NCBI RefSeq assembly: GCF_014645235.1
Contig: NZ_BMLM01000001.1
Location: 806,001 to 870,000, forward strand
DNA from: Agrococcus terreus
GTDB taxonomy: Bacteria > Actinomycetota > Actinomycetes > Actinomycetales > Microbacteriaceae
DNA length: 64,000 nt
Direction: 5' to 3'
The notes under the pieces are model-generated. The model was not told the DNA's origin. It did not search any database and saw only the letters and a list, made by a program, of their open reading frames with translations. Each line of letters begins with the position of its first letter. Positions within the stretch are counted from its first letter, which is position 1. Both the position numbers and the translations under genes were made by a program. Positions 8,069-56,500 of the stretch are shown piece by piece.

Positions 8069-8126
8069 GGACCCGATCCTGCGCCGTGGACCCGAAGGTT
8101 CGGGTCCAGCGCGCAGGATCGGGTCC
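8069..8126. repeat. Nested palindrome, family A copy 1
   Basis: A 58-base hairpin with outer 16-base arms (GGACCCGATCCTGCGC at 8069-8084 and its exact complement at 8111-8126). They enclose an inner palindrome TGGACCCGAA/TTCGGGTCCA at 8087-8108. A near-identical element is at 17919-17978. It follows the LpdA-like gene and may end its transcript, though no T-run follows. The rest of 8036-8216 shows nothing else. Confidence 0.85.
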
Positions 8127-17918: not shown

Positions 17919-17978
17919 TGGACCCGATCCTGCGTCGTGGACCCGAGATCTCGGGTCCACCGCTCAGGATCGGGTCCA
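17919..17978. repeat. Nested palindrome, family A copy 2
   Basis: Outer arms TGGACCCGATCCTG (17919-17932) and its complement (17965-17978) enclose a perfect 22-base palindrome at 17938-17959 built on TGGACCCGAGA. It is the same architecture and outer sequence as the element at 8069-8126. Here it lies between the divergent maf and methyltransferase genes, so it is not simply a terminator. Confidence 0.88.
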
Positions 17979-19292: not shown

Positions 19293-19350
19293 CCGCGGCC
19301 CTGCGGGCCGCGGCGCTGGGGTCGCGGCGGAGGTCCGCAGGACCTCCGCC
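19293..19350 (+). terminator. Double hairpin, repeat unit 1
   Basis: Two hairpins follow the methyltransferase stop. CCGCGGCCC/GGGCCGCGG (19293-19313) has a TGC loop. GGCGGAGGTCC/GGACCTCCGCC (19326-19350) has a GCA loop and an 11-base perfect stem. Probable terminator of the gene. Confidence 0.65.
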
Positions 19351-19416
19351 CTCAGCTCCACCGCGCACACCCACCACGTGGAGGCGGTGGCCTCCTTCCG
19401 CAAGGCGTAGCGGCTG

Positions 19417-19460
19417 CCGCGGCCCTGCGGGCCGCGGCGGAGGTCCGCAGGACCTCCGCC
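19417..19460 (+). terminator. Double hairpin, repeat unit 2
   Basis: A second copy of the same pair of hairpins: 19417-19437, and 19436-19460 with the same 11-base stem. It arises from the tandem duplication. Confidence 0.6.
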
Positions 19461-19539
19461 CTCAGCTCCACCGCGCACACCCACCACATGGAGGCGGTGG
19501 CCTCCTTCCGCAAGGCGTAGCCTCCGTCGGTCGAGCCGC

Positions 19540-25137: not shown

Positions 25138-26259
25138 ATGATCGTCGGCGTGGTGGGCGGCGGACAGCTGGCCCGGATGATGATCCCCGCAGCGGTCGAG
25201 CTCGGCATCGAGCTGCGCGTGCTCGCGGAGGGCGAGGGGATGTCGGCCTCGCTCGCGGCCACGGCGGTCGGCGACTACCGCGACGCGGCGACGGTGCTCG
25301 CGTTCGCCGAGGGCGTCGACGTCGTCACCTTCGACCACGAGCACGTGCCGCAGGCGGTGCTGCGCGCGCTCGTCGAGGCCGGCCACGCCGTGCACCCCGG
25401 GCCCGATGCGCTCCGCTTCGCGCAGGACAAGCGCGAGATGCGTGCCCGGATGGCCGAGCTCGGCGCGCCGCAGCCCGACTGGGCTCCGGTCGACTCGGCC
25501 GACGACCTCGCCGCGTTCCTCGCCGACCACGGCGGCGTCGGCGTCGTGAAGACCGCGACGGGCGGCTACGACGGCAAGGGCGTGCGCGTCGTCCGCTCGG
25601 TCGAGGATGCGGCCGACTGGCTCGAGGGCGCCGCCGCGGGAGGACCGCGCCTGCTCGTCGAGGAGCTCGTCGACTTCCGCCGCGAGCTCGCGCAGCTCGT
25701 CGCCCGCCGACCCTCGGGCGAGGCGGTCGTCTGGCCGCTCGTGCAGACCGTGCAGCGCGACTCGATCTGCGCCGAGGTGCTCGCGCCCGCGCCCGACGCG
25801 GCCCGCATCCAGCCCGTCGTCGACGACATCGCCCGCCAGGTGGCCGAGGGCCTCGGCGTGACCGGCGTCCTCGCGGTCGAGCTGTTCGAGACGACCGACG
25901 GCCGCGTGCTCGTGAACGAGCTCGCCATGCGGCCGCACAACTCGGGCCACTGGTCGATCGACGGAGCGATCACGAGCCAGTTCGAGCAGCACCTGCGGGC
26001 CGTGCTCGACCTGCCGCTCGGCTCGACGGCGCTCGTCGCGCCCGCGAGCGTCATGGTGAACGTGATCGGCGGGCCCGCCTCGGGCGCCATGGCCGACCGG
26101 TACGCCGGCGCGCTCGCCGCGCATCCCGACGTCAAGGTGCACTCGTACGCGAAGTCGACGCGCGCCGGCCGCAAGGTCGGGCACGTGACGGCGATCGGCG
26201 ACGACCTCGACGAGGTCGCGTACCGCGCCCGCGCGGCGGCCGCGCACTTCGACGCCTGA
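25138..26259 (+). CDS. purK: 5-(carboxyamino)imidazole ribonucleotide synthase
   Basis: ATP- and bicarbonate-dependent carboxylation of AIR to N5-CAIR in purine synthesis. The 373-residue ATP-grasp enzyme has GGGQLARMM at the N terminus, VKTATGGYDGKG for the ATP loop, and the metal/ATP-binding segments ELFE and VNELAMRPHNSGHW. A strong AAGGAGG precedes the ATG. Its partner purE, normally adjacent in actinobacteria, is 1.5 kb downstream because an oppositely oriented nuclease-like gene lies between them. Confidence 0.95.
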   Translation: MIVGVVGGGQLARMMIPAAVELGIELRVLAEGEGMSASLAATAVGDYRDAATVLAFAEGVDVVTFDHEHVPQAVLRALVEAGHAVHPGPDALRFAQDKREMRARMAELGAPQPDWAPVDSADDLAAFLADHGGVGVVKTATGGYDGKGVRVVRSVEDAADWLEGAAAGGPRLLVEELVDFRRELAQLVARRPSGEAVVWPLVQTVQRDSICAEVLAPAPDAARIQPVVDDIARQVAEGLGVTGVLAVELFETTDGRVLVNELAMRPHNSGHWSIDGAITSQFEQHLRAVLDLPLGSTALVAPASVMVNVIGGPASGAMADRYAGALAAHPDVKVHSYAKSTRAGRKVGHVTAIGDDLDEVAYRARAAAAHFDA

Positions 26260-26307
26260 GGCGGTCGCGCAGCCAACCGGCCCTGCGAGTCCCTGCCCGT
26301 CGGATGC

Positions 26308-26362
26308 GTGTGGTCACAGAGCGCCCTCGTCGCGCCCCTACAGGGGCGTTCTCTGACCACAC
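26308..26362. repeat. Palindrome, family B copy 1
   Basis: GTGTGGTCA (26308-26316) and TGACCACAC (26354-26362) form the ends. An inner hairpin CGCCCC/GGGGCG sits at 26333-26348. It lies just after the purK stop. Confidence 0.85.
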
Positions 26363-26398
26363 CGCCACCCGCGTAGCGCTGCATCGCGGCCGGCGGAT

Positions 26399-26467
26399 GC
26401 GGGTGTGGTCAGAGCACGCCCCGATCGAGCCGCGTCGGGGGCGTCCTCCGACCACACCGTCACCCGC
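26399..26467. repeat. Palindrome, family B copy 2
   Basis: GGTGTGGTC (26402-26410) and GACCACACC (26450-26458), extended by GCGGGTG/CACCCGC at 26399-26405 and 26461-26467. The interior ACGCCCCGA/TCGGGGGCGT also pairs. It lies 21 bases before the stop codon of the nuclease-like gene. Confidence 0.85.
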
Positions 26468-26488
26468 ACGCCGAGCGGGCCGCGCGGA

Positions 26489-27436
26489 TCAGCGCCTCGG
26501 CCGGTCGGGTGCGAGGCAGGGCGACCAAAAGCCGCGCAGTGCGATCGGAGTCGTCGCGGCGGCCGCAGCGCGTGCCCGGACCTCTGCGACGAAGTCCGAG
26601 AGCGCGGCTCTGCCCTCCGGCCGGTGATGGTGCGCTCCGAACTTCCGGATGCGCCAGCCGAGCGCCTGCGGACGCTCGAGCCGATCCAGGTCCTTGGCGC
26701 GCTGCTGCGGGTCCGACCAGTGCTGCTCGCCGTCGTACTCCCAGCCTGCGCGCAGCTCCGGCCAGCCGCCGTCGAGCCGCATGAGGAAGGTGCCGTCCTC
26801 GTCGAAGATCGTCAGGTTGAGCTCCGCTGTGGGGAGCCCGAGGTCCTTCAGGAGCAGACGGTGCCTCGTCTCCCGCGGTGATTCGCTGCCGACCGCGCAG
26901 TCGCGCACGGCGGCGACGGCGGCTGCGATCCGAGGCGCGCCCCGACGTCGCTCGCAGTGCGCGAGGAGGTCGGCGGGCTCGATCCGCTCGGCGCCGCGCC
27001 GATGGGAGACGAGCCAGTCGGCGACGGCGACGAGGGAGCCGTGGTCGAGGAGCGTCGCGAGGTGCACGAACGTGTCGATCCGGCTGGTCACCGGCAAGCC
27101 GGCCGCGCTCTCGACGCGAGTCCGGAGCCGATGGCCCACGACGCCGCGTCGACGCATCCGGCTGCCCGCGGTCGGGGCCGCGACATGCACCTCGCCCGCG
27201 CGGGTCCGAGCGGGCAGCGGCATGCCGTGCAGCGCCGCTGCGGTGGTGTGCGAGAAGCAGTGGTCGTCGCGGGCGACGAGCGCGAGCGCGTCGAGCACGA
27301 GCCGGTCGTCGTCGACCGCCGCCCGCAGCACGCGGACGCCGTGAGCGGGCGCGGCGAAGCGGCCCGCCCTGAGCTGCTTGGGCGTTGCGCCAGCGGCGCG
27401 CGCCTCGGAGACGAGGAAGGGGGAGGCGAGGTCCAT
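26489..27436 (-). CDS. AbiEi/DUF559-like protein with Vsr-type nuclease domain
   Basis: A 315-residue protein of a type frequent and variable in actinobacteria. The N-terminal half (to about 165) resembles AbiEi-like winged-helix antitoxin proteins (FSHTTAAALHGMPLP, then EVHVAAP). The C-terminal part (about 185-290) resembles Vsr/DUF559 PD-(D/E)xK nucleases, with candidate catalytic residues E189 (SPRETRH), D222 (RLDGG) and E233 (EYDGEQHW). No partner toxin is adjacent. CACCCT ends six bases before the ATG. It sits inverted between purK and purE, with two GTGTGGTCA hairpins on each side. The role may be defence or DNA processing; not proven. Confidence 0.7.
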   Translation of the reverse strand: MDLASPFLVSEARAAGATPKQLRAGRFAAPAHGVRVLRAAVDDDRLVLDALALVARDDHCFSHTTAAALHGMPLPARTRAGEVHVAAPTAGSRMRRRGVVGHRLRTRVESAAGLPVTSRIDTFVHLATLLDHGSLVAVADWLVSHRRGAERIEPADLLAHCERRRGAPRIAAAVAAVRDCAVGSESPRETRHRLLLKDLGLPTAELNLTIFDEDGTFLMRLDGGWPELRAGWEYDGEQHWSDPQQRAKDLDRLERPQALGWRIRKFGAHHHRPEGRAALSDFVAEVRARAAAAATTPIALRGFWSPCLAPDRPRR

Positions 27437-27521
27437 GGGCGCAGGGTGCCCCGCCCCGCCGGACGGCGTGCGGCGTGCCCTCGTCGCTGTGGACAGCTGC
27501 GGCCGCCTCGTTCCAGCCCGC

Positions 27522-27574
27522 TGTGGTCACAGATGGCCCCCGCGGGATCGATCAGAGGGCCATCTGTGACCACA
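27522..27574. repeat. Palindrome, family B copy 3
   Basis: Perfect 18-base arms, starting TGTGGTCACAGATGG, at 27522-27539 and 27557-27574, with a 17-base loop. It lies in the divergent gap between the nuclease-like gene and purE. Confidence 0.9.
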
Positions 27575-27592
27575 CCCCGAACTGCGGTGGAT

Positions 27593-27653
27593 GGGGTGTG
27601 GTCAGAGAGTGCCCCGGATGCGCCGGGCGGAGGGCCATCTGTGACCACACCCC
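27593..27653. repeat. Palindrome, family B copy 4
   Basis: Perfect 12-base arms GGGGTGTGGTCA (27593-27604) and TGACCACACCCC (27642-27653). It starts 18 bases after copy 3, and its right half repeats the GGGCCATCTGTGACCACA arm of copy 3. The rest of the 361-base gap (27437-27797) holds only the purE promoter. Confidence 0.9.
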
Positions 27654-27784
27654 TGACCGCGCGGCGGGCGAGGGGGCGGGCGCAGGTCAGCGGCGCGGGT
27701 GGGGCTGCGACGCGGGGCTGCGGGCGGTGCGGAGGTGAGCGGCGCGCCGCGCGGCCCGCGTCGGCGGCGGGCGCAGGGCCGGTC

Positions 27785-27790
27785 TACCCT
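27785..27790 (+). promoter_or_regulatory. -10 hexamer of a leaderless promoter (purE)
   Basis: TACCCT ends seven bases before the purE ATG at 27798, giving purE its own promoter, apart from purK. Confidence 0.5.
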
Positions 27791-27797
27791 GGTGGGC

Positions 27798-28298
27798 ATG
27801 CCTGCGGTCAGCATCATCATGGGATCCGACTCCGACTGGCGGGTCATGGAGGCGGCGAAGGCCGCGCTCGACGAGCTCGGCGTCGCGGCGGAGGTCGACG
27901 TCGTCTCGGCGCACCGCACGCCCGACAAGATGGTCGACTTCGCGCGCGGGGCGGCGGACCGCGGCGTCCGCGTCATCATCGCCGGCGCCGGCGGCGCCGC
28001 CCACCTGCCCGGCATGGTCGCGTCGATGACGCGCCTGCCCGTCATCGGCGTGCCCGTGCCGCTCGAGCGCCTCGACGGCCTCGACAGCCTCCTCTCAATC
28101 GTCCAGATGCCCGCCGGGATCCCCGTCGCGACCGTCTCGATCGGCGGGGCCCGCAACGCCGGCATCCTCGCCGCGCGCATCCTCGGCACGACCGACCCGG
28201 CGATCGCCGATCGGCTCGACGCCTTCGCCGCCGACCTCGAGCGCCAGGTCGGCGACAAGGCCGCCGCGCTGCGGGAGCGCGTCGGCGGCGACGCATGA
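27798..28298 (+). CDS. purE: N5-carboxyaminoimidazole ribonucleotide mutase
   Basis: Rearranges N5-CAIR (made by PurK) to CAIR in purine biosynthesis. At 166 aa it is class I PurE. Motifs are MGSDSDW (phosphate and carboxylate site), SAHRTPD with the catalytic His, and [10 protein letters not shown]. The ATG at 27798 gives the standard [13 protein letters not shown] start. Its stop overlaps the next gene's ATG by four bases, coupling it to the LCP gene. Confidence 0.95.
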
Positions 28299-34692: not shown

Positions 34693-35741
34693 TGCGCGTC
34701 GTCGTCTTCCCGGCCTACCGCGAGAACCCCTTCCTCGGGATGCTGCTGTCGGGTGCTAAGCGCGACGGCGCCGAGATCGTCGACACCCGCACGCTCGACG
34801 AGCTGGCGGCCGCCCTCGCGGTGCGGCCCGAGTCCACCGTGCTCAGCGTCCACTGGACCAACCCGGTCGCGCAGTCGACCCGGAATCCGGCGATCGCGGT
34901 GCGGAACGCGCTGCAGTTCCGACGCATCCTGCGATCGGCGAAGGCCGCGGGGGCGCACGTGGTGTGGACCGTGCACAACGTGCTCCCGCATGGCGCCCGG
35001 TTCCCGCGCATCGAGCGCTGGCTCCACCGCCTGCTCGCCGCCCAAGCCGACCGGATCCACGTGATGCACCCCGACACCGCCGCGCTCACGGCGCCGCACT
35101 ACCGCCTGCCGGACGACCGCGTGCGCCTCGTGCCGCACCCGAGCTACGTGGGCGCCGTCGGACCCCGAGCAGACCGAGAGGTCGAGCGCGCGCGCCTCGG
35201 CCTCGGAGCGAGGGAGGCGGCGGTGCTGCTGCTCGGGCAGATGCGGCCGTACAAGGGCGTGCTCGAGCTCATCGACGCAGCGGGCGCCGCGCACCGTCCC
35301 GGCGGTCTGACGCTGCTGCTCGCGGGCAACGCGACGCCCGACGAGGCCGCGGCGATCGAGGCCGCGATCGCGGCGCGGCCCGGCCTCCGAGCGGTCTGTC
35401 AGCTGCGCTACATCGACGATGCGGAGCTGCCCCGCTGGTTCGCAGCGGCCGACGTCGTGGCGCTGCCGTATCGCCGCATCCTCAACTCGGGCAGCGCGCT
35501 GCTCGCAGCGACCTTCGGCACGCCGGTGCTGCTGCCGGACGAGCCGCATCTCGCTGACCTCGGTGCCCACGACTGGGTGACGCTGTTCAGCGGCGCGGAC
35601 GGACTCCGCGCGGCGCTCGAGGCGGTTCGTGTGGATGATGCGGCGGCCCGGGCGTCCGCCATCGCCTTCGCGTCAACCTGGACCGGCGAGGACGCCGGAG
35701 ACGCCTACCGAGAGCTCCTGCACGAGGCGCTCGTGTCCTGA
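34692..35741 (+). CDS. Glycosyltransferase, GT-B fold
   Basis: A 349-residue transferase with hallmarks VHWTNPV, VWTVHNVLPH, LLLGQMRPYKGV and YRRILNSGSALLAATFGTPVLLPDE. It is a clear paralogue of the C-terminal domain of the neighbouring 979-residue protein (WTIHNVLPH, GQIRPYKG, YRNILNSGTMHLAATYGLPVMLPDE). The two genes converge with only four bases between their stops, forming an inverted pair. The start overlaps the rgpF-like stop. Donor and acceptor are unknown. Confidence 0.88.
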   Translation: MRVVVFPAYRENPFLGMLLSGAKRDGAEIVDTRTLDELAAALAVRPESTVLSVHWTNPVAQSTRNPAIAVRNALQFRRILRSAKAAGAHVVWTVHNVLPHGARFPRIERWLHRLLAAQADRIHVMHPDTAALTAPHYRLPDDRVRLVPHPSYVGAVGPRADREVERARLGLGAREAAVLLLGQMRPYKGVLELIDAAGAAHRPGGLTLLLAGNATPDEAAAIEAAIAARPGLRAVCQLRYIDDAELPRWFAAADVVALPYRRILNSGSALLAATFGTPVLLPDEPHLADLGAHDWVTLFSGADGLRAALEAVRVDDAAARASAIAFASTWTGEDAGDAYRELLHEALVS

Positions 35742-53725: not shown

Positions 53726-56500
53726 GTGCTCCCGAGGGTCTTCGCCGTGCTCGCCGTCAGCGACGGTGCAGCCGCCCTGCCCGCGACCCTCGCCGCGGTC
53801 GCTGCGCAGACCGTCGCGCCCGAGCGCGTGATCGCGGTCGACGGCGGCTCGCGCGACGGCTCGCGCGAGCTCCTCGAGGCCTCGGCGGCGCGCACCGTGC
53901 TCCACGAGCGGCGCCTGCCGTACGGCACGCTCGTCGCGCGCGGCGTCGCGGCGCTGCCCGAGGCGGAGCCGGGCGACTGGCTGTGGCTGCTCGCCCACGA
54001 CGCGGCGCCCCACCCCCGCGCGCTGCAGGCGCTCCTCGGCCACGTCGACGCGCATCCGAGCGTCGCGCTCGTCGGCCCGAAGGTGATGCGCGCCGACGAG
54101 CCGGACCGCTTCGCCGAGCTCGGGCAGACGATGACGCCGTTCGGCCGGAGCATCCTGCTGCACGAGGGCGAGCTCGACCAGGGCCAGCACGACGACGTGT
54201 CGGACGTGCTCGGCGTCGCCGAGACGGGCGTGCTCGTGCGCCGCGACGCGTTCGATGCCCTCGGCGGCTTCGACCCCGCTCTGCGATCGATCGACGCCGG
54301 CCTCGACCTCGGCGTGCGCGCGCGCCTCGCCGGCCATCGGGTCGCGGTCGAGCCTCGCGCCCGCGTGCGCCGCGCCGGCGGGCCCGAGCACTTCCAGGCG
54401 CGCTCGGTGAGCGACGCCCAGCGCGTCGCCGTCGCCCGCCGCGCGCAGCTGCACCGCCGGCTCGCGTACGCGCACCCCGTCGCGCTCGTCGCGCACTGGC
54501 TCCTCCTGCTGCCGCTCGCGGTCGTGCGCAGCCTCCTGCACCTGCTCGCCAAGCGGCCCGCAGCGGTGCTGGCGGAGTGGCGCGCGACCCTCGCCTCCGT
54601 CGTCTCGTTCGGTGCCACCGCTCGCGCCCGACGCAGGATCGCCGCCGCGCGCGAGGCCGGCTGGCGCACGCTGCGGCCGCTGCGGATCCGCTGGCGGCAG
54701 GTGCGCTCCGGGCGCCGGGCGCTCGGCGACCCCGTCCGCGCCCAGCATCCGGTCGACGAGCGCGTCGGCTTCGTCGAGGGCGCGGGCCTGTGGGTGACCG
54801 CGCTCGCCGTCGTCGTCGGCATCGTCCTCTCGCCGCAGCTCATCGGCGCCGCCCGCGCGACCGGCGGCGCGCTGCTGCCGCTCTCGGGCACGCCCGCCGA
54901 GCTGTGGACCAACGCGCTCGCCGGCCCGCGGGACGCGCTCGGCGCGGTCGTCGGCCCCGCCGACGCCTTCGCCATCGTGCTCGCCCTGCTCGGCACGCTG
55001 ACGCCGTGGCAGCCGTCGACGAGCATCGTGCTGCTGCTCATGCTCGCGCCCGCGATCGCATCCGTGACGGCCTTCTTCGCGGTGCGGCGGCTCACGGCCT
55101 CGCGGTGGGCGCCCGCGGTCGCGGCCGCCGTCTGGGCGCTCGCACCGACGCTCCTCGCCGCGATCGTCGAGGGCCGCGTCGGGCCGATCGTCGCCCACCT
55201 CGCGCTGCCGCTCGCCGTGGCCGGCATGCTCGCCGCCCACCGCTCCTGGCGCGCCGCCGGCGCGGCGGCGATCCCGGTCGCGCTCGTCGCCGCTTCGGCG
55301 CCCGTGCTGCTGCCCGCGCTCGTCGTGCTGCTCGTGCTCGCCGTCGCGCTCGGCTGGCGCAGCCCGCTCCGCCCGCTCGCCGCGGCGGTGCCCGCGGCGG
55401 CGCTCGTCGTGCCGGTCGCGGTCGACCGCTGGCTCGCCGGCGTCCCGCTCGCGGCGCTCGCGGACCCGGGCGTGCCCCGGCCGGGCGACGCGCCGACCGC
55501 CGTGGAGGCCGCGCTGCTCGCGCCGGAGGGCACGATGGCCGGCCTCGAGGCCGTCGTCGCCGCGCTCGCGCCCGGGACCGATGCGGCATGGGTCGCCCTC
55601 GGGCTCCTCGTGCCGCTCGCCGCCGCGGCGCTCGCGGGCGTGGTGCTGCGGCCCGGCCGAGCCTGGCCATGGCTCGTGCTGCTGCTCGCGGGCTACGCGA
55701 CCGCCGTGGGCGCGACGCGCCTCGCGCTGACGAGCCTCGAGGGCGAGCCGGCGACGGTGTGGGCCGGATCCGGTGCCTCGCTCGTGCTCGCGGCGCTCGT
55801 CGCGCTCGCGGTGGTCGCCGTCGACGTGGACGACCGGCGTGGGGCCGCGCCCGGCGCGCTCGTCGCGATCGCGGCGGTCGCCGCATCCGTGCCGGTCATC
55901 GCGACGTCGTTCCTCGCGCCCGCGGTCGTCGTCGCCGCGCCCGAGCGCCGGATGCCGGCGTTCGTCGACGCGGCTGCCGACGAGGACGCGCGCGTCGGCG
56001 TGCTCGTCCTGCACCCGCTCGCGGAGGGCGTCATCGCCATCGACGTCGAGCGCGGCGACGGACGGACGCTCGATGACCTGTCGACGGCCGATCTCGTGCG
56101 CACCGCGGCGGATCCGGTCGAGGCCGAGCTCGCGCAGGCCGCGGTCGACCTCGCCGCCGGCGGCGACGTCGACGTCGCGCGGCTGCTCGACGACCAGCGC
56201 ATCCGGTTCGTGCTGCTCGAGCAGGAGCGCGAGGGGGCGGCAGGCGTGCACGACCGGGCGCAGCGCTCGCTCGACGCGCGCGGCGACCTGGAGGCCATCG
56301 GCCAGACCGAGGCGGGCCTGCTGTGGCAGCGCGACGCCGACGACGTCGGCGCGCCCGCCGAGCGGCCCGCGTGGGCCGGCTGGCTCCTGGTGGGCCAGCT
56401 CGCCGCGCTCGCCGGCGCGGTCGTCGCAGCGCTGCCGTCGCTGCGCCGCGGCGACCGGACGCGCACGCGCAGGACCGACGGGACGGGGGAGTGGCGATGA
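53726..56500 (+). CDS. Large membrane glycosyltransferase (GT2 + multi-helix domain)
   Basis: 924 aa. Residues 1-260 form a cytosolic GT2 domain (VFAVLAVSDGAAALPATL, VDGGSRDGS, WLWLLAHDAAPHPRAL, ETGVLVRRDAFDALGGFDP). After a helix pair at about 255-280 comes a long integral part with roughly ten helices (350-690) and an extracytoplasmic C-terminal domain (about 715-880). A last helix precedes a basic tail. It corresponds to the glycosyltransferase found between whiB2 and DUF5719 in actinobacteria. It overlaps the DUF5719 gene by four bases. The polymer it builds is unknown. Confidence 0.87.
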   Translation: MLPRVFAVLAVSDGAAALPATLAAVAAQTVAPERVIAVDGGSRDGSRELLEASAARTVLHERRLPYGTLVARGVAALPEAEPGDWLWLLAHDAAPHPRALQALLGHVDAHPSVALVGPKVMRADEPDRFAELGQTMTPFGRSILLHEGELDQGQHDDVSDVLGVAETGVLVRRDAFDALGGFDPALRSIDAGLDLGVRARLAGHRVAVEPRARVRRAGGPEHFQARSVSDAQRVAVARRAQLHRRLAYAHPVALVAHWLLLLPLAVVRSLLHLLAKRPAAVLAEWRATLASVVSFGATARARRRIAAAREAGWRTLRPLRIRWRQVRSGRRALGDPVRAQHPVDERVGFVEGAGLWVTALAVVVGIVLSPQLIGAARATGGALLPLSGTPAELWTNALAGPRDALGAVVGPADAFAIVLALLGTLTPWQPSTSIVLLLMLAPAIASVTAFFAVRRLTASRWAPAVAAAVWALAPTLLAAIVEGRVGPIVAHLALPLAVAGMLAAHRSWRAAGAAAIPVALVAASAPVLLPALVVLLVLAVALGWRSPLRPLAAAVPAAALVVPVAVDRWLAGVPLAALADPGVPRPGDAPTAVEAALLAPEGTMAGLEAVVAALAPGTDAAWVALGLLVPLAAAALAGVVLRPGRAWPWLVLLLAGYATAVGATRLALTSLEGEPATVWAGSGASLVLAALVALAVVAVDVDDRRGAAPGALVAIAAVAASVPVIATSFLAPAVVVAAPERRMPAFVDAAADEDARVGVLVLHPLAEGVIAIDVERGDGRTLDDLSTADLVRTAADPVEAELAQAAVDLAAGGDVDVARLLDDQRIRFVLLEQEREGAAGVHDRAQRSLDARGDLEAIGQTEAGLLWQRDADDVGAPAERPAWAGWLLVGQLAALAGAVVAALPSLRRGDRTRTRRTDGTGEWR

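Follow-up and report, generated by a model that had tools for sequence, protein, structure and literature searches.

A nuclease gene bracketed by inverted repeats between purK and purE of Agrococcus terreus: a probable REPtron-like system

In the actinobacterium Agrococcus terreus, a gene for a predicted nuclease stands in reverse orientation between purK and purE, with two inverted repeats on either side of it. This arrangement raises the question of whether gene and repeats belong together, and in what way. The locus lies in a stretch of 64,000 nucleotides (the window; assembly GCF_014645235.1, contig NZ_BMLM01000001.1, positions 806,001 to 870,000 of the forward strand), to which the coordinates below refer. 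The evidence makes it probable that gene and repeats form a nuclease-repeat system resembling the REPtrons, in which a Vsr/DUF559-type nuclease would take the place of the HUH transposase. A first-pass annotation of the window had compared the locus with REP/RAYT modules in its logic, that is, a nuclease with its own palindromic ends or targets, and this comparison is supported by the flanks of homologues, empty junctions in relatives, restriction of the motif and covariation between protein and repeat. Genomes and loci are designated by G and L numbers, A. terreus itself being G000.

Repeats around the nuclease gene

The nuclease gene (26489..27436, reverse strand, 315 amino acids) combines an AbiEi-like N-terminal half with a nuclease domain of the Vsr/DUF559/MTES_1575 type. 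Four inverted pairs surround it, each exactly 55 bp from end to end. Repeats 1 (26308..26362) and 2 (26403..26457) lie between the convergent purK and nuclease genes, and repeats 3 (27521..27575, with 18 paired bases on each side) and 4 (27596..27650) in the divergent gap between the nuclease gene and purE. The first-pass annotation had recognized all four, two of them in the divergent gap; its ends for repeat 1 stand, whereas those for the other three (26399-26467, 27522-27574 and 27593-27653) are replaced by the ones given here. Exact GTGTGGTCA forms the end of six of the eight arms, with one mismatch in each of the other two (the right arm of repeat 2 and the left arm of repeat 3), and within the window the exact 9-mer is confined to the four repeats. 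The neighbours purK (25138..26259, forward strand) and purE (27798..28298, forward strand, start codon set by reading) were identified with NCBIfam models. All three earlier gene calls were upheld, with a single oppositely oriented nuclease gene parting purK from purE.

Throughout the genome, TGTGGTC-N36..46-GACCACA has 10 matches, whereas its reversed control has none. Together with three copies containing one mismatch, these make up 13 elements at 6 sites. Tandem elements occur at several sites, with starts 73-75 bp apart (75 bp for repeats 3 and 4), or 95 bp for the 5' pair of the window (repeats 1 and 2). Repeat periods of 20, 32, 63, 74 and 83 bp come close to 2, 3, 6, 7 and 8 helical turns, a correspondence that is suggestive only.

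The repeats had been described as hairpins, which holds for them as inverted pairs. Each copy in the window has a better fold than any of its own 200 shuffles (z -3.9 to -6.3). Selection for a strict hairpin was rejected. By column, positions 8-14 are unpaired in 5 to 12 of 27 elements, and the outer seven and columns 15-18 in 0 to 2. The inner arms of one element differ at 2.1 of 7 bases in G000 and at 3.3 of 7 in its relative G019, compared with 3.2 and 3.0 of 7 between elements of the same genome; the difference within an element is thus a little lower in G000 and no lower in G019. The pair score across the 27 elements exceeds all 500 shuffles, a result that arms copied from one motif would also give. 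Since the inner parts are often unpaired, and two inner arms from a single element often resemble each other no more closely than arms from different elements do, the arm, set in an inverted pair, is taken as the unit. It would be recognized as a double-stranded site rather than as a folded hairpin.

Terminators were rejected as a full account of the repeats: no T-run terminator-like site was found at the purK-purE nuclease locus, the inner arms are often unpaired, and the motif follows the nuclease. A structured RNA was also discarded; the four matches at E<=1 were all to miRNA families, the best at E 0.006 and all far below the gathering scores, and are taken as chance.

Homologues, empty junctions and scattered copies

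A hand-assembled query close to L040 detected homologues of the nuclease (E<=1e-20) in 125 of the 199 Microbacteriaceae genomes, or 60 of the 85 genera. Their surroundings have been compared by a flank test, in which the similarity of a locus's own left and right flanks is set against that of cross-locus pairs, preserving the nature of the DNA; it took the place of an initial 8-mer count that missed single palindromes. Among 98 homologues, own flanks scored above every one of the 60 cross-locus pairs in 49 when compared in inverted orientation and in 44 in direct orientation, where about 1.6 would be expected each time. Outside Agrococcus, own flanks exceeded all 50 controls in 66 of 116 homologues inverted, 71 direct and 82 in either orientation (about 2.3 expected per test). 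The two sets share 30 loci (L160-L192). From the first, L049, L052, L124, L131 and L182 were dropped for their short flanks, L129 because it coincides with L087, and 14 named loci because they duplicate genus genomes; the second leaves out L168, L175 and L182, and one of 117 was too short. The motif differs from locus to locus among these homologues, which are flanked by repeats of their own often, though not always. Matched flanks extend to homologues of Mycolicibacterium elephantis and Specibacter and, in direct orientation only, Micrococcus; a second Mycolicibacterium homologue (L187) had none in this test. When pseudo-genes were placed along the window, 14 of 1559 positions scored 53 or more, seven at the nuclease locus and seven at 35191-35431; as the latter score as high or higher, a high flank score is not by itself peculiar to the nuclease locus within the window. 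Stretches roughly 1 kb apart show inverted similarity at 35191-35431 and also at 55591-56151 (score 45-46).

In the genus, 24 Agrococcus genomes were sampled, and purE is present in 23. The junction is uninterrupted at 16 of the 23 purE loci, where purK and purE are neighbours 39-331 bp apart, and GTGGTC, GACCAC and GCTTCCC are absent from both strands of all these gaps. The nuclease separates the two genes in G000, G019 (73% identity), G004 (frameshifted), G006 (33%) and G002 (31%), and very probably in G020, judged by contig ends; G014 has a different neighbour at purE. The gene is not kept at this place genus-wide (5 of 23, plus the one from contig ends). In G019 it is bracketed by its own element pair, and in G006 and G002 the junction has a different palindrome, GAGCTTCCCC..GGGGAAGCTC. 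The exact 53-55 bp TGTGGTC pattern is restricted to two of the 24 genomes, those with the closest nucleases. In G004, where two nuclease copies (L029 and L101) are split into separate frames, the exact 53-bp element is absent and 32-bp-spaced repeats occur at purK-purE.

A second locus behaves differently from a cassette, the term first applied to the whole arrangement. At 40% identity or more there are 32 Agrococcus homologues; 18 of them, each from a different genome, share both neighbours, and one more shares one; about 12 further Agrococcus homologues lie outside all counts. Many have a 20-bp unit repeated in tandem on both sides, in forward orientation 5' of the gene and inverted 3' of it, and the core of the unit is TGGTC, TGGCG or TGGCC depending on the species. 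Copies of the unit are also scattered away from the gene, and a forward run passes into an inverted one in the eight own-genome stretches inspected. With the same two neighbours in 18 genomes and changing repeats, the gene acts here as a resident rather than a hopping cassette, so that the term holds only in part.

The scattered copies follow the motif of the nuclease. Allowing one mismatch on both strands, AGTGGCGCCTCCCGCA occurs 50 times in G002, 74 in G003, 23 in G010, 54 in G011, 9 in G013, 21 in G016, 16 in G017, 11 in G021 and 41 in G022, and all nine genomes have the TGGCG core in their locus-2 flanks. In 13 of the remaining 15 Agrococcus genomes it is found at most once, and its reversed control 0-5 times per genome. 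Of their own inverted-pair elements, A. terreus has 13 and G019 has 17. Another pattern, GAGATGCCACTT-N14..38-AAGTGGCATCTC, is present 83 times in G068, 87 times in G192, once in G138 and in none of 17 others (control 0), and in G068 and G192 the nuclease sits between two of its copies. The M. elephantis genome (L184) has 14 forward and 16 reverse matches to its arm (control 1 and 0), pairing into about 13 palindromes, of which two flank the nuclease. Of 50 elements examined, each counted a single time, 46 are intergenic (own genome 12/12, G019 16/17, G068/G192 9/10, Mycolicibacterium 9/11), and 7 of 10 distinct G068/G192 elements lie between convergent genes; both counts come from a crude GC3 gene caller and are indicative only, because it misread some own-genome neighbours.

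The intergenic position would also suit passive co-location, in which independent terminator-like palindromes gather in intergenic hot spots and the nuclease came to lie among them by chance. This is very improbable, as matched flanks are peculiar to the individual nuclease locus, protein residues covary with repeat bases (see below), and the motif goes with the nuclease lineage rather than with the site. The last point emerges from a comparison of the six own sites with the eight element sites of G019. Four of the six are common to both genomes: purK-purE, the junctions of what we take, from their translations, to be folD/SRPBCC-like and deoR/metB-like genes, and L001/L059; L063 and L064 have no partner among the G019 sites. 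At the deoR/metB-like site each genome carries three tandem elements. Between the genomes the arm cores differ at 5.3 of 7 bases, against 2.1-3.3 within each. G013 has the deoR/metB-like genes directly adjoining each other and 17 bp between the folD/SRPBCC-like pair. Common sites with unlike motifs indicate either rewriting in place or the same junctions filled twice. Other repeats, of GTCTCGATACGCC and GTCTCGTGACGG types, are present at the folD-like junction of other Agrococcus genomes (L378, L382, L386 and L385), where they are apparently further families occupying it.

The protein and the bases it may read

PADLOC AbiEi models match the window protein with E 8e-5 (residues 11-126) and 2e-4, together delimiting an AbiEi-like region at residues ~7-126 (27059..27418, reverse strand), and the two commonest each match 21 of the 42 homologues in alignment A4. 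The nuclease domain, placed by alignments and a structure model, comprises residues ~205-295 (26552..26824, reverse strand). MTES_1575 is recognized in 30 and DUF559 in 23 of the A4 homologues (E<=0.01); the window protein itself gives a weak match of this type, E 0.084, below the curated cut-off. D222, E233, G236, H239 and D249 are invariant in the 23 homologues of alignment A2, and in the wider A4 set E233 is kept in at least 90% and the other four remain invariant. D222, E233, H239 and D249 are presumably catalytic, as in the nuclease family. Profile matches and conserved core alike assign the protein to the Vsr/DUF559/MTES_1575 superfamily.

The AlphaFold2 model of the nuclease is of high confidence (pLDDT 91.1, pTM 0.87). 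Foldseek gave no match below E 0.001 in the PDB, the best being a domain of the homing endonuclease I-Bth0305I (3r3p; E 0.12, probability 0.97, TM 0.61 by target length); a PDB profile search returned 3hrl (E 5e-4) and 3r3p (E 0.098). No HUH domain was detected with Pfam, PADLOC, Foldseek or the PDB profile search, and no DDE domain among the profile hits. Phage or plasmid cargo was rejected, with no nuclease match in 50,697 phage records and only two plasmid records matched. The MTES_1575 Vsr-REase is described in another fusion in PMC3710099. The own genome also has a third nuclease (36% identity; L390/L391, C2 248.7-250.4 kb) with flanks of another arm type, TGCACCGAA..GGCCCC, and so appears to hold three nuclease/repeat pairs.

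The domain kinship with AbiEi and with restriction-enzyme models in the defence library, and the many specificities across species, would fit a defence or self-marking role, the nuclease attacking incoming DNA and the genomic repeats titrating it, tethering it or marking self. Such a role is quite improbable, since an active nuclease with targets in its own genome would normally require protection, and at the purK-purE locus, the one place searched for them, no AbiEii nucleotidyltransferase, partner methylase or toxin gene was found. That the phage records contain no match has no direct bearing on this role.

The residues that vary with the repeat have been sought in 27 of the 32 Agrococcus homologues of at least 40% identity, using L010 numbering (column 93 is R95, and column 89 G91, in the window protein). 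Column 93 is R in 17 of 17 proteins with TGGTC or TGGCC cores and Q, H or V in 10 of 10 with TGGCG. Column 89 is R in 10 of 10 TGGCG proteins, G, T or A in 13 of 13 TGGTC proteins, and R or T in the four with TGGCC. On the tree of the 27 proteins, parsimony requires five changes of core label. Outside Agrococcus, 66 of 117 loci have arms starting with CGA[GAC]+core. From these a set of 55 was formed by dropping L174, L198, L207, L214, L217, L239, L246, L267, L268, L274 and L276 as doubtful, with L203, L221, L247 and L264 set by hand. The strongest residue-position pairs in this set are, in order, 91-3, 32-8, 90-3, 85-4, 101-2, 277-3 and 93-6. Where position 5 is C, 43 of 48 loci have R93, against 2 of 7 where it is not; R32 accompanies T at position 8 in 14 of 20 loci, and H32 accompanies A in 18 of 22. 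The window protein likewise has H32 with A at position 8, and its G019 orthologue R32 with mostly T, in GCTTCGC/GCTCCGC arms.

After thinning to <70% identity, five pairs stay above the shuffled 95% level (residues 90, 85, 32, 91 and 101), and the mean z of segment 84-103 is above the rest at <70, <55 and <50% identity (p 9e-5, 5e-4 and 8e-4). A putative repeat-reading segment can thus be delimited at window residues 87-103 (L010 85-101; 27128..27178, reverse strand), which in the model forms a strand-loop-strand with R93, R95, R96 and R97 and a loop between strands 83-87 and 99-103. On account of this covariation the AbiEi-like half is very probably the reader of the repeat, and the pattern suggests that it binds it.

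Covariation of this kind is compatible with any DNA-binding protein, including an AbiEi-type repressor whose flanking repeats serve as operators (perhaps also as bidirectional terminators), with the scattered copies as its regulon and the nuclease domain otherwise employed. The AbiEi-like half, and the two sites adjoining the gene's own start in the divergent gap, speak in the same direction. Such a regulator is nevertheless unlikely: the sites flank the gene on both sides, most of the distinct G068/G192 elements lie between convergent genes by the crude caller, and more than 80 near-identical palindromes per genome would make an unusual operator set. The purK-purE locus has no T-run terminator-like site, and the putative catalytic residues are conserved.

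Mechanism, known systems and meaning

In the mechanism favoured here for the REPtron-like system, the AbiEi-like half would recognize the bipartite arm (TGTGGTCACAGATGGCCC in the window) as double-stranded DNA, residue 32 and the strand-loop-strand segment 87-103 reading different arm bases. Two inverted arms, 53-55 bp overall, may put two nuclease domains face to face, and the tandem single-arm arrays of relatives could place them in the same way. The nuclease domain would then nick or cut at arm sites, and repair from other copies would duplicate, spread and homogenize the sites, which might thereby track the shifting specificity of the enzyme. It is possible, though it cannot be called likely, that this amounts to nuclease-driven concerted evolution, in which the reading segment mutates and cut-and-copy repair rewrites tens of sites per genome in place. 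Specificity would change as fast as in PRDM9, with the opposite outcome, as the repeats would follow the enzyme over species time; this analogy is offered just as tentatively.

Several observations weigh against the favoured system. Binding, nicking and movement are inferences from sequence. In the flank test, 34 of 116 homologues, and much of the Agrococcus clade of 34% identity, had no matched flanks. G138 has the flanking motif and yet a single exact copy genome-wide. Despite TGGTC nuclease flanks (L030) and TGGTC-type residues, G018 has 31 copies of the TGGCG unit AGTGGCGCCTCCCGCA, which might be relics of an older specificity; four occur in G015, where the flanks carry TGGCC, and none in G019, since its unit, though TGGCG at the locus-2 core, is otherwise different. 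The common sites could be hot spots filled twice, and the comparison of filled and empty sites resolved neither the ends to the base nor a target duplication. As to covariation, five of the 32 Agrococcus homologues were left out (L029, L038, L052, L098 and L101), core ties of L050 and L051 were labelled from palindromes, and the shuffles ignore phylogeny, the best of 200 reaching z 7.8 against 8.0 observed in the 55 loci. Several high-ranking residues fall outside the segment (277, 253, 6 and 149, and by mean z 262 and 158). At <55% identity no pair is above the shuffled 95% level (5.7 against 5.8), although the same residues lead, and at <50% the top pair, residue 30 with position 7, merely equals it. 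The claim at these two thresholds rests on segment enrichment, because the top pairs do not exceed the shuffled level.

The closest known systems are the REPtrons, made of REP/REPIN sequences and a TnpA-REP/RAYT enzyme. PMC8266576 describes them as a chromosomal enzyme with flanking and dispersed intergenic repeats, inverted pairs, tandem clusters and enzyme-repeat co-evolution. The system described here resembles them in having a chromosomal enzyme gene set between inverted copies of the repeat that belongs to it, in repeats that are dispersed, mainly intergenic and arranged as inverted pairs and tandem clusters, in the co-evolution of enzyme and repeat, and in the near absence of the nuclease from plasmids. 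It differs in that the enzyme is AbiEi-like with a Vsr/DUF559-type nuclease instead of an HUH/Y1 tyrosine transposase, the arms read have no GTAG end (TGTGGTC.. in the window, CGA[GAC]+core at most of the other loci), and copies number tens rather than hundreds to thousands. The inner arms also need not pair, which would suggest a double-stranded site. Without the HUH enzyme and the GTAG tag, it would work like a REPtron and yet not be one.

Other systems share single features. Like TIRtrons and MITEs, the enzyme gene lies between inverted repeats with solo copies elsewhere, and the 20-bp unit, arrayed to either side of the gene in the locus-2 clade of Agrococcus, recalls transposon ends with binding-site arrays, as in Tn7 and Mu. 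TnsA gave only a weak Foldseek match to the nuclease (probability 0.12). Unlike in TIRtrons and transposons, the profile hits include neither a DDE nor an HUH domain, no target duplication could be demonstrated, and the locus-2 gene has fixed neighbours in 18 genomes. I-Bth0305I, a Vsr-like homing endonuclease, is the best match of the nuclease domain among solved structures, and an enzyme favouring its own site would be homing-like; here the gene is not in an intron or intein, there are many short repeats instead of one target, and the DNA-reading half is different. AbiEi antitoxins of type IV toxin-antitoxin systems match the N-terminal half, but at purK-purE there is no AbiEii partner, the half is fused to a nuclease domain, and the repeats are scattered genome-wide.

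Two further repeats of the window appear here for completeness. A nested palindrome (GGACCCGATCCTGCG..., inner GGACCCGA..TCGGGTCC) is present in two copies, at 8069-8126 and 17919-17978, and is unrelated to the GTGTGGTCA family and possibly a further repeat family with its enzyme elsewhere. A tandem repeat at 19307-19521 consists of two 110-bp copies with 96% matches and includes a GGAGGTCC/GGACCTCC palindrome.

In the open-licence PMC literature, the range covered (subscription papers and preprints lay outside it), no account of a Vsr/DUF559 nuclease that has repeats of its own was found, and the system is therefore regarded as new, the REP/RAYT logic itself being already known. If the proposal is true, a named enzyme could be assigned to dispersed palindromes of Actinobacteria, and the REP/RAYT logic would have arisen at least twice from unrelated enzymes. 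The dozens of natural enzyme/site pairs may provide a testable recognition code, relating residue 32 and segment 85-101 to arm bases 2-8, and the common sites with different motifs would make the concerted evolution of intergenic repeats directly testable. A family annotated as DUF559 or AbiEi-like, and present in most of the Microbacteriaceae genomes sampled, would thereby gain a testable function.

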